From contig NZ_JALZ01000015.1 of assembly GCF_000521785.1 (NCBI RefSeq), positions 1-64,000 of the forward strand: DNA of 64,000 nt, written 5' to 3'. The first letter of the stretch is position 1, and each line of letters opens with the position of its first letter. Below the pieces are notes generated by a model. The model saw only the letters and a program-made list of their open reading frames with translations. It did not search any database and was not told the origin of the DNA. Of this stretch, positions 40,039 to 43,306 are shown piece after piece. Position numbers and translations under genes: made by a program. The DNA comes from Roseivivax halodurans JCM 10272 (GTDB taxonomy: Bacteria > Pseudomonadota > Alphaproteobacteria > Rhodobacterales > Rhodobacteraceae).

Positions 40039-40497
40039 TCAGCCCAGATCGCGCCGCATCGTCGCCATGCCGTTGCGCCGCGACAGCTCCTCGTATCCCG
40101 CCGAGAGATAGGCGTTGAGCGCCGGCTCGTTGTCGGTCTCCACCTTCAGCGTGATGGTCAGCGCCTCGAGCCCCCGCGCCGCCTCCTCGACGAGCCGCGC
40201 CATCTCGGCCCCCGCGCCGCCCCGCGCCTCCTCGGCGACGAAGACATAGGTGAGGTGCCGCACCTCCGGTCCGACCCCAACACGGAGCGCGAAGAACCCG
40301 ACCTCACGGCCATCCGCATCGAGGATGTAGAACGACGCATCGTCCGGCTCGTTGAGCCATTTCTCCGACCATTCCTGCGGATCGAACGGATGCTTGGCGT
40401 TGGGATTGACCAGTTCGAGGTCAGCGGGATCGGTCAGCATCTCGCCGAGCGTCACCAGCTCAAACGGCGCGTTCTTGCGGATCGTGAGGTCAGGCAT
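40039..40497 (-). CDS. GNAT family N-acetyltransferase
   Basis: A 152-residue acetyltransferase of the GNAT fold. The acetyl-CoA-binding strand-loop is YVFVAEEARGGAGAEMARLV, followed by LTITLKVETDNEPALNAYLSAGY, the usual alpha4-beta7 end. The substrate is unknown. The ATG at 40497 is set by AGGAG 7 bases upstream. It is the last gene of a minus-strand run after the DNA-repair cassette, 60 bases downstream of the UdgX gene, and could be co-transcribed with it. Confidence 0.88.
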   Translation of the reverse strand: MPDLTIRKNAPFELVTLGEMLTDPADLELVNPNAKHPFDPQEWSEKWLNEPDDASFYILDADGREVGFFALRVGVGPEVRHLTYVFVAEEARGGAGAEMARLVEEAARGLEALTITLKVETDNEPALNAYLSAGYEELSRRNGMATMRRDLG

Positions 40498-40557: not shown

Positions 40558-42039
40558 TCAGGCCATGCCCTGCAGGAGCCGCGCCGCCGCGCCCAGATCC
40601 TCGCGGAACGCCGCCCGCTCCGCCTCGGCCCGGCCCGCATCGGGGATGCGCAACAGGTACGAGGGATGCATTGTCAGCAGCACGGGCGTTCCGTCCTCGG
40701 CCTCCTCGATCCGCCCCCGCCGCTTCAGGATCCCCTTCCCCGTCCCGGTCAGCGCCTCGGCGGCCGTCGCCCCCATCGACAGGATCAGCTTCGGCGCGAC
40801 CAGCTCGCGTTCGAGGTCGAGCCACCAGCGGCAGCGCTCCACCTCGCCCGCATCGGGCTTCGAATGGATGCGCCGCTTGCCCCGCGGCGCGTACTTGAAG
40901 CCCTTGACCGCGTTGGTGACATAGGCCGCCCCGCGGTCGAGCCCCGCCGCCTCCGCGCTCTCGTCCAGAAGCCGCCCCGACGGTCCGACGAAGGGCCGCC
41001 CGGAGAGGTCCTCGTGATCCCCCGGCTGCTCGCCCACGATCATCAGCTCCGCCGAGACCGGCCCCTCCCCCGGCACCGGCGCCGTCGCCTTCGGGCAGAT
41101 TCCGCAGCGGGCGCAGGCGCCGATCTCGCGATGAAGCCGCCCGAGCGCATCGTCGGGCTCCGCCTCGGCCAGGAGCGCCCGCGTCCGCTCGCGCACCTTC
41201 TCGGCCCGCCCGTGCGGTACCGCGGCAGGCGCCGTCTCCGCCATCTGCCGCACCCGCGCCTCCGCCCCCGCGACGAGCCCCGGGATCAGCTCCGCCTCGG
41301 GCAGGTTCTTCCAGTACTTCTTCGGCATCTCGGCGCACATCGCCTTCACCATCAGCCGCGCCGGGTTGAAGATCGACGCGTAATAGGTCCGCCACAGCTC
41401 CTCGGTCGCATCCTCCGGCGGCCGGGCCACGTCACCCGTCTCCTCGAAGCTGAGACGCCCCTCCACGAACCGCGCCGTCACCCCAGGCGTCGCGATCACC
41501 CAGTCCATGTCGCCGAAGCGCTTGGCAAAGAACGGCGTGCCCCGCTCGACGCAATTGTGCTCGGGCTCGAACCACGCCGCGAAGGCGCGCCGCGCGCCCG
41601 TCCCCTCGACCTCCCGGAACCGCACGAAGGCATGCATCTTGTGGATGTCGCGCCCGACCGCCTTGGCCTGCCGCAGCACGCATCCGACATCGGCATCCGC
41701 CCGGTCCCCCCAGACCGCCTCGCCCCGCGACAGCCGCAGCACCAGCCGGTAGCCCCGCGCGAAGCGCTCGCGGTCCGAATGGCACATCGCGCTCTCGATC
41801 GTGTCGACCGCCGCCTTCGGCAAGCGCAGCCGCGTCCCCGCTTCTTCTTGGCGAAAATACTCCGGGGTCCGGGGCAGCGCCCCGGTCCTGCCCTCGCCAC
41901 CCGCGGCGAAGAGATCCCCCGACGCGCCCCCGACCGACCAGATCACCTCCTCCGCCGGCACGCCCGCCGCCGCCAGCGCCCGCGCCTCGCGCCGCCACGC
42001 CGCGACCGTCCCGACACGCGGCAGTACCACCTGCCGCAT
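40558..42039 (-). CDS. udgX: DUF4130-UdgX fusion, uracil-DNA binding protein
   Basis: A 493-residue two-domain protein. The N-terminal DUF4130 part (about residues 1-240) is the partner domain of the radical SAM repair family. The C-terminal part (about 290-493) is a uracil-DNA glycosylase fold with GEQPGDHEDLSG and the UdgX-type loop GKRRIHSKP. His392 of that loop matches the residue that bonds covalently to uracil-excised DNA in mycobacterial UdgX. Four cysteines (ACARCGICPK and others) suit a 4Fe-4S cluster. Residues about 51-66 are encoded by a dispersed hairpin repeat. The start overlaps the radical SAM stop by one base (TGATG). Confidence 0.9.
   Translation of the reverse strand: MRQVVLPRVGTVAAWRREARALAAAGVPAEEVIWSVGGASGDLFAAGGEGRTGALPRTPEYFRQEEAGTRLRLPKAAVDTIESAMCHSDRERFARGYRLVLRLSRGEAVWGDRADADVGCVLRQAKAVGRDIHKMHAFVRFREVEGTGARRAFAAWFEPEHNCVERGTPFFAKRFGDMDWVIATPGVTARFVEGRLSFEETGDVARPPEDATEELWRTYYASIFNPARLMVKAMCAEMPKKYWKNLPEAELIPGLVAGAEARVRQMAETAPAAVPHGRAEKVRERTRALLAEAEPDDALGRLHREIGACARCGICPKATAPVPGEGPVSAELMIVGEQPGDHEDLSGRPFVGPSGRLLDESAEAAGLDRGAAYVTNAVKGFKYAPRGKRRIHSKPDAGEVERCRWWLDLERELVAPKLILSMGATAAEALTGTGKGILKRRGRIEEAEDGTPVLLTMHPSYLLRIPDAGRAEAERAAFREDLGAAARLLQGMA
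41841..41888 (+). repeat. dispersed hairpin repeat, copy C, inside udgX coding sequence
   Basis: Forty-eight bases: CTTCTTCTTGGCGAAAATAC, TCCGGGGTCC and a hairpin with arms CCGGGGC/GCCCCGG. It matches copy E at 59590 almost throughout. It lies within udgX on the opposite strand and is read in frame as [15 protein letters not shown]. Its length is a multiple of three and contains no stop in this frame. Confidence 0.9.
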
Positions 42040-43271
42040 CAGAAAAGCGCCATCTGCTGCGGCTGCGGCGCGAACCGCGCCCGCAGCGCGTCGGCCTCGA
42101 GCATCCCCCGCGGGCTCCAGCCGCCCGCGACGATGAAGGCCTGCGCGTTCTTCATCACCGCCCCCATCGCCTTCAGGTGCTCGTAGCGCACGAGGCCGCG
42201 CCGCCGCGCCGCGAGGATCCGCCCGACCGTCTTGGTGCCGAAGCCCGGCACCCGCAGCAGCTCCTCCCGGCTCGCCCGGTTCACATCGACCGGGAACCGC
42301 TCGCGGTGCTCCAGCGCCCAGGCGGTCTTGGGATCGACCTCGAGATCGAGCATCCCCGAGCCGCCGCCGATCTCCTCGACCCCGAAGCCGTAGAACCGCA
42401 AGAGCCAGTCCGCCTGGTAGAGCCGGTGCTCGCGCACGAGCGGCGGCGGCTTCAGGGGCAGCGCCTTCGCCGGGTCCGGGATCGGCGAGAAGGCGGAATA
42501 ATAGACCCGGCTGAGGCCATAGGAGGCGTAGAGCCCCGCGCTCTGCGTCAAGATCGTCCGGTCGCTCGCCCCGTCCGCCCCGACGATCACCTGCGTCGAC
42601 TGCCCCGCGGGAGCGAACCGCGCCGGCCGCTTGCCGCGGAAGGACGGGCCCGAGCGCGATTCCTCGCGCCGCATCCGCACGCCCGCCATGGACTGGCGGA
42701 TGTTCTTGGCGGATTTCTCCGGCGCGAACTCCGTCAGCGACTTCTCCGTGGGCATCTCGACGTTGATCGACAGCCGGTCCGCCCATTTCCCCGCCTCGTC
42801 GATCAGCTCCTGGCTCGCCGAGGGGATGGTCTTGAGATGGATGTAGCCGCGGAAATTCTCCTCCTGCCGCAGATTGCGGGCGATCCGCACCATGTCCGCC
42901 ATCGTGTCGTCCGGCGAGCGGATGATCCCCGAGGACAGGAACAGCCCCTCGATGTAGTTGCGCCGGTAGAACTCCACCGTGAGCGAGACGACCTCCTCGA
43001 CCGAGAACCGCGCCCGCTCGACCCGGGACGACGCCCGGTTGATGCAGTACGCGCAATCGTAGATGCAGAAATTCGTCATCAGGATCTTCAGGAGCGAGAT
43101 GCAGCGCCCGTCCGGCGCATAGGCGTGGCAGATCCCCGATCCGCCCGAGGATCCCATGCCCTTGCCGTCCCGCGAGTCGCGCTTCTCACCACCCGACGAG
43201 GCGCAGGAGGCGTCGTATTTCGCCGCGTCCGACAGGATCGCCAGTTTGTCCGTGAGAGTGCGCTTCACCAT
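42039..43271 (-). CDS. putative DNA modification/repair radical SAM protein
   Basis: A 410-residue radical SAM enzyme of the TIGR03916 type. The 4Fe-4S ligands are Cys69, Cys73 and Cys76 in CIYDCAYC, and a helix-hairpin-helix DNA-binding motif lies near the end (RASREELLRVPGFGTKTVGRIL). The N terminus (DKLAILSDAAKYDASC) is typical of the family. The chemistry is unknown. Family members are repeatedly found next to DUF4130/uracil-glycosylase proteins, as here. The start codon stands 2 bases from a doubled LexA box and about 6 bases after a -10, so the mRNA may be leaderless. Confidence 0.92.
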   Translation of the reverse strand: MVKRTLTDKLAILSDAAKYDASCASSGGEKRDSRDGKGMGSSGGSGICHAYAPDGRCISLLKILMTNFCIYDCAYCINRASSRVERARFSVEEVVSLTVEFYRRNYIEGLFLSSGIIRSPDDTMADMVRIARNLRQEENFRGYIHLKTIPSASQELIDEAGKWADRLSINVEMPTEKSLTEFAPEKSAKNIRQSMAGVRMRREESRSGPSFRGKRPARFAPAGQSTQVIVGADGASDRTILTQSAGLYASYGLSRVYYSAFSPIPDPAKALPLKPPPLVREHRLYQADWLLRFYGFGVEEIGGGSGMLDLEVDPKTAWALEHRERFPVDVNRASREELLRVPGFGTKTVGRILAARRRGLVRYEHLKAMGAVMKNAQAFIVAGGWSPRGMLEADALRARFAPQPQQMALF

Positions 43272-43273
43272 AA

Positions 43274-43299
43274 GTTCTTATTAAGTTCTCTCAACGTTC
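43274..43299. promoter_or_regulatory. doubled LexA (SOS) box
   Basis: Three GTTC half-sites at 43274, 43285 and 43296 are each separated by 7 bases, giving two overlapping copies of GTTC-N7-GTTC, the LexA operator known in Rhodobacter and other alphaproteobacteria. They cover the -10 and spacer of the promoter of the radical SAM gene. I found no other GTTC-N7-GTTC when scanning the gene starts of the window. Confidence 0.85.
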
Positions 43300-43306
43300 C
43301 ACTCAA
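43278..43306 (-). promoter_or_regulatory. promoter of the radical SAM-udgX cassette
   Basis: On the minus strand TTGAGT (43301-43306) and TAATAA (43278-43283) are spaced by 17 bases. The expected start site falls on or next to the ATG at 43271. No Shine-Dalgarno sequence fits at the right distance. The LexA half-sites overlap both the -10 and the spacer. Confidence 0.6.

Follow-up and report, generated by a model that had tools for sequence, protein, structure and literature searches.

Does a repeated GTTC word in front of a radical SAM (rSAM) gene and udgX of Roseivivax halodurans JCM 10272 place this gene pair under LexA control, and how would such a switch be built? The window, i.e. the whole 64,000-nucleotide stretch of contig NZ_JALZ01000015.1 that was analysed, carries GTTC at positions 43274, 43285 and 43296 with 7 bases between each copy, just as an earlier note on this DNA had described. 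A pattern search of the window returned GTTC-N7-GTTC at 43274-43288 and 43285-43299, in agreement with the direct reading. On the minus strand, which is the gene strand, the three words read as a direct repeat, GAAC-N7-GAAC-N7-GAAC, that ends 2 nt upstream of the ATG of the rSAM gene (43271). Two overlapping LexA boxes are predicted. The start-proximal box 1 (43274..43288, minus strand; GAACTTAATAAGAAC on the gene strand) lies 2 nt before the ATG and is the generally conserved one; the start-distal box 2 (43285..43299, minus strand; GAACGTTGAGAGAAC on the gene strand) has its inner half-site in common with box 1. Both half-sites and spacing are identical to those of the alphaproteobacterial LexA operator, the identity that the earlier note had proposed, as this operator is given in the accessible text of PMC8565304; in that of PMC12907096, GTTC-N7-GTTC is called the exact known consensus of C. 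crescentus. The window site differs from this operator in that two copies overlap and a likely -10 hexamer lies inside the spacer.

The count of the pattern in the window is not significant, with 2 matches vs 1.28 expected and at least 2 in 35 of 100 shuffles. It was therefore dropped as a measure of the site and conservation was taken instead; it is by its place and its conservation, and not by this count, that the site stands beyond chance. In the whole genome, 107 matches were counted (50 forward, 57 reverse) vs 56 (25 and 31) for the pattern read backwards. Perfect boxes precede the genome's own recA (match at C1:124657-125619, minus strand; box at C1:125715-125729), lexA (match at C4:99935-100621, minus strand, over the cut-off; box at C4:100658-100672) and uvrA (match at C1:495968-498742, plus strand; box at C1:495867-495881), which identifies the GAAC/GTTC repeat as the LexA motif of this genome. 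From the sequence comparisons, the three GTTC words very probably form a real LexA damage-response switch at the start of the radical SAM and UdgX pair.

As a separate observation, further GAAC-N7-GAAC boxes stand close upstream of open frames of the same genome (L242, L243, L248 and L246), and these frames resemble, by eye, DnaE2, ImuA, a small protein and a gene divergent from cytidine deaminase.

The radical SAM and UdgX gene pair

The gene next to the box (42039..43271, minus strand) encodes a radical SAM protein of 410 aa, which scored 571 bits against TIGR03916 (cut-off 343.5), a family that we take to be the same as COG4277, and which is also over the cut-off of Radical_SAM (PF04055). 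The protein presents a CX3CX2C motif (CIYDCAYC, 43067-43044) and a helix-hairpin-helix near 42284-42228, where the HHH models scored below their cut-off. Its stop codon overlaps, as TGATG, the start of the second gene (40558..42039, minus strand), which encodes a DUF4130-UdgX fusion of 493 aa with DUF4130 and UDG domains, over the cut-offs of TIGR03915 and TIGR03914. The defining motifs of UdgX were taken from the accessible text of PMC10359453 on the Mycobacterium smegmatis protein. The window protein has in common with it motif A with its Q (GEQPG, 41034-41020), the R-loop with the nucleophilic His (KRRIH, 40878-40864) and motif B, which reads HPSYLLR (40668-40648) vs HPS(S/A)(L/V)(L/V)R in that text, i.e. 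with Y at the S/A place. Unlike UdgX of M. smegmatis as presented there, it follows DUF4130 within a fusion protein, and its gene is the partner of a radical SAM gene.

The pairing was followed in the loci with enough sequence, which for the alphaproteobacteria meant at least 1600 bases after the rSAM gene (n = 84); 87 of 195 loci were too short and were left out. A UdgX/DUF4130 relative lies downstream of the rSAM gene in 83 of the 84 alphaproteobacterial loci and in 24/24 others, and 156 of the 157 R-loops in the alignment retain their nucleophilic His. A GNAT acetyltransferase gene downstream of udgX in the window (40039-40497, minus strand) was ruled out as a regular operon member, with a relative in just 4 of the 84 loci. 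On the other side of the shared upstream interval, a mechanosensitive channel gene (start taken as 43435) is divergent from the rSAM gene. Members of the rSAM family over the cut-off were found in 36/198 genomes of the family draw, 25/385 of the class draw and 84/398 of the phylum draw. The pair is patchy across genomes, and the box accompanies it almost without exception in the alphaproteobacteria sampled.

Conservation of the box and change of the operator type

We collected 196 orthologous rSAM promoters, of which 189 were distinct after removal of 7 duplicates: 163 from alphaproteobacteria, the window's included, and 26 from other classes of the phylum. A box was defined as a perfect GAAC-N7-GAAC or GTTC-N7-GTTC within -120 to +15 of the start. 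Partial or low-score matches (L164-L168) were dropped before the counts; 6 of the 36 members from the family draw and 9 of the 84 from the phylum draw (3 of them outside the class) were over the cut-off yet left out of the promoter set.

A perfect box was present in 161 of the 163 distinct alphaproteobacterial promoters, compared to 0.565 expected per shuffle. The boxed promoters comprise 145 with the GAAC orientation and 18 with GTTC, two having both. When control patterns were searched in the same 163 promoters, the reversed form gave 2 matches, a spacer of 6 bases gave 3, and both a spacer of 8 bases and the inverted form gave 0. Before duplicate removal, the box was found in 30/30 promoters of the family, 22/23 of the class, 37/37 alphaproteobacterial promoters of the phylum draw, and 79/80 of a set made of the best 80 of 576 relatives. 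The latter set is biased to close relatives, but the three genome draws are in agreement with it. Of the two promoters without a perfect box, L118 shows GAAC-N7-GAAT where the box usually stands, and L143 comes from a genome (G394, 92% complete) without a full-length LexA match.

Outside the class, GAAC-N7-GAAC was found in 0 of the 26 promoters. These promoters, all from Pseudomonadota, carry instead CTGT-N8-ACAG, which we take to be the E. coli-type LexA box, in 19 of 26 cases (0.035 expected, control 0), or in 22 of 26 with one mismatch allowed in an arm. This second motif occurs once among the 163 alphaproteobacterial promoters, and in 6 of them with the mismatch. The type of operator follows the type of LexA, a strong argument that LexA is the regulator. 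The conservation of GTTC-N7-GTTC before orthologous rSAM/DUF4130-UdgX genes, which the earlier note had named as a check, together with the second motif outside the class, strongly supports the LexA control that it had proposed for the pair.

Five promoters have no LexA-like box even with the mismatch allowed: the alphaproteobacterial L143, and L169, L192, L193 and L211. Two of them belong to genomes without a full-length LexA match, G394 and G641, the LexA-like match of the latter being C-terminal only, and a third belongs to a genome (G897) with a LexA match below the cut-off. The remaining two genomes, G848 and G658, are of one family; their LexA is over the cut-off and a palindrome, TTAGTAGTAATACTACTAA, stands before lexA (L354 and L355). 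Inspection by eye of their rSAM promoters revealed neither TTAGTAGTAATACTACTAA nor another LexA box. These two are either real exceptions to LexA control or have a site of an unrecognised type. The rSAM promoters L192 and L193 show a TCTCAT-N3-ATGAGA inverted repeat in place of TTAGTAGTAATACTACTAA.

The doubled half-sites

The earlier note had presented the window site as a doubled LexA box. The two overlapping sites do exist; the doubling, however, is found only at the level of a clade, and general conservation is confined to the start-proximal box. The exact GAAC triple is present in 4 of 169 distinct alphaproteobacterial rSAM promoters, those of the window, G937, G934 and Ferranicluibacter rubi (L134), and for this reason a general role of box 2 was rejected. 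Three of the four triples are within the window's genus, in which the start-proximal box is present in 9/9 genomes. In the tree of these nine members, the three genomes with the triple group with Roseivivax jejudonensis and G938 in a clade of five (support 99/97).

The third half-site in the genus could be a chance, neutral acquisition without function, and we give this reading slightly less than even weight. It is favoured by the rarity of the triple and by the sequences GATC and GACG that occupy the place of the third half-site in R. jejudonensis and G938. The offset profile bears on it in two ways: perfect half-sites occur at offset -11 in 4/151 promoters, the numbers at 36 other offsets ranging from 0 to 2, yet three of these four are close relatives, and when matches of 3 or 4 bases are counted, offset -11 (14/151) is exceeded by offset -6 (16). 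Against neutrality, GAAC is kept in the window, G937 and G934 while their 7-base spacers differ, and the same triple recurs before another gene. GAAC-N7-GAAC-N7-GAAC is present in 9 of 28 lexA loci of the family (L293-L296, L299, L303, L304, L310 and L312), always shortly upstream, after TTGAC, at roughly 45-85 bases before the lexA match, compared to 0/30 recA loci and 0/30 uvrA loci. The lexA promoters with the triple thus have this arrangement in common with the window's rSAM promoter; they differ in that their triple is close behind TTGAC, with a leader before lexA, whereas that of the window abuts the ATG. As a sequence pattern, the triple is a recurrent form of the predicted LexA operator. 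It would perhaps give LexA two overlapping registers and a tighter hold.

Promoter layout, predicted transcript and SOS context

On the minus strand, the rSAM promoter of the window reads TTGAGT-GGAACGTTGAGAGAACT-TAATAA-GAACTT-ATG. The predicted -35 hexamer TTGAGT (43301..43306, minus strand) is 17 bp from the predicted -10 hexamer TAATAA (43278..43283, minus strand), which lies within the 7-base spacer of box 1. The sites had been said to cover the -10 and the spacer of this promoter; this placement is consistent with the prediction, the likely -10 being inside box 1 and box 2 occupying the stretch between -35 and -10. A generic promoter scan gave a different pair of hexamers, TTGAGA-16-TATGGT, which was discarded because the second one overlaps the ATG, whereas TTGAGT-17-TAATAA matches the column counts given below.

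This layout agrees with that of the orthologous promoters. In 126 of the 145 alphaproteobacterial promoters with the same orientation, the box ends 0-7 nt upstream of the first in-frame start, with a gap of 2 nt in 80, 3 nt in 19 and 5-7 nt in 19. Aligned on the box, the 126 promoters show T92 T83 G82 at 18-16 bases before it, where the TTG of the window's -35 falls, and T122 A114 T77 A57 A62 T79 at positions 6-11 of the box, the columns of the window's TAATAA. These column counts point to a -35 and a -10 with a spacing of 17 bp, the -10 being inside the LexA spacer. The start codon is ATG in 123 of the 126.

When the gap is 2 nt, the A of the ATG falls on the seventh base downstream of the -10, the position at which transcription usually starts. 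The rSAM mRNA should therefore be leaderless, with the ATG of the window (43269..43271, minus strand) as its predicted transcription start, and a leader a few bases long would be expected at gaps of 5-7 nt, e.g. those of the Rhizobium loci. No Shine-Dalgarno-like 4-mer was found before the window's rSAM ATG, nor in 116 of the 126 box-adjacent promoters. This absence is weak evidence because lexA and uvrA of the family often have none either (such a 4-mer precedes the candidate ATG in 23/24 recA, 17/25 lexA and 13/29 uvrA loci), and the distance from the -10 to the ATG is the stronger argument. From this spacing, the SOS transcript of the rSAM-UdgX operon is predicted to have no leader or almost none. 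In Sinorhizobium meliloti, 171 leaderless starts have been mapped, all of them AUG, according to the accessible text of PMC3616915, where AUG is part of the definition.

The 2-nt form is present in several families of the class, e.g. in L148 (family f13), L158 (f63), and L219 and L222 (f174). The design is not universal: the distance to the start is 9-31 nt for 19 of the 145 boxes, and a box of opposite orientation is present in 18 of the 163 promoters, at about -88 in one family. In family f171 (L144, L184, L185, L186, L189, L190 and L218), a GTTC-orientation box lies 87-90 nt before the aligned start and is followed by TAATATAAAG; this layout suggests a longer leader or another start.

The control SOS genes of the window's family are arranged differently. 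The box lies mostly 48-57 nt before the ATG of recA and most often about 20-57 nt before the start of lexA, shortly after TTGAC (6 and 3 loci, respectively, were unreadable by the motif used and were left out of these gap counts). In the uvrA loci (L321-L350) its orientation is the opposite one, GTTC; it precedes a TTGG word and, in the majority of these loci, lies about 62-70 nt upstream of the ATG. Boxes were present in 21/24 recA, 26/26 lexA and 22/30 uvrA readable loci. In the promoters sampled, a LexA box accompanies the rSAM-UdgX pair with roughly the regularity seen for lexA, and with a higher frequency than for uvrA in this family sample. We regard it as an even question whether operator, -10 and start codon are fused in one conserved block of about 20 bp, from which release of LexA would give a leaderless mRNA, as a dedicated SOS design for a DNA-crosslinking enzyme in several alphaproteobacterial families, unlike recA, lexA and uvrA of the window's family.

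LexA could also bind the box mainly on behalf of the divergent mechanosensitive channel gene, with which the rSAM gene has its upstream interval in common. We consider this very improbable, as the box is 2-3 nt from the rSAM start in 99 of the 145 same-orientation promoters, whereas in the window it is about 136 bp from the channel start as taken, and it covers the likely -10 of the rSAM promoter. Least credible of all is that the GTTC words are due to chance, as the window count would allow, or are kept only through overlap with the promoter and the ribosome-binding region, as the overlap with a likely -10 would allow, because both half-sites are kept at the exact spacing with only 0-3 matches to the altered forms, the outer half-site corresponds to no -10 or Shine-Dalgarno sequence, and a different LexA-type motif is found near the start outside the class.

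The pair had been put forward as under likely SOS control. LexA control is supported, but the novelty is smaller than implied, since SOS control of the COG1573-COG4277 operon, i.e. a UDG and its partner, is already reported for Bacteroidetes in the accessible text of PMC8565304, which also cites earlier SOS reports for this operon in Verrucomicrobia and Caulobacter crescentus. Both that operon and the one in the window are two-gene operons of a UDG and a partner assigned to SOS; a leaderless design or a doubled box is not mentioned for the former in the accessible text of the same paper. A literature search, outside which subscription journals mostly lay, found no paper joining UdgX with SOS and LexA, or UdgX with radical SAM, and the matches for leaderless, LexA and Alphaproteobacteria together were, by title, on other subjects. 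To this, the present analysis adds how deeply the box is conserved, the shift of operator along with the LexA type, the predicted fused design of operator, promoter and start, and the status of the doubled box.

Taken as a whole, the element is, with high probability, a LexA operator that the rSAM-UdgX operon carries within its core promoter. In the mechanism that we infer, LexA would sit on the GAAC direct repeat in the undamaged cell, covering the -10 and keeping the operon off, and the doubled half-sites would offer it two overlapping registers. Upon damage, RecA would trigger the self-cleavage of LexA and transcription of the operon would begin at the A of the ATG and yield a leaderless mRNA, from which the TGATG overlap would allow the radical SAM and DUF4130-UdgX proteins to be made together. 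UdgX would then trap uracil or abasic sites covalently, and the radical SAM protein would act on the same damaged DNA.

This arrangement points to a self-crosslinking glycosylase that stays repressed as long as no damage occurs. The prediction of a leaderless SOS transcript is simple and can be checked; if the fused design is true, translation independent of a Shine-Dalgarno sequence could go on in stressed cells. The role of the radical SAM enzyme becomes, in turn, a question testable in SOS-induced cells.
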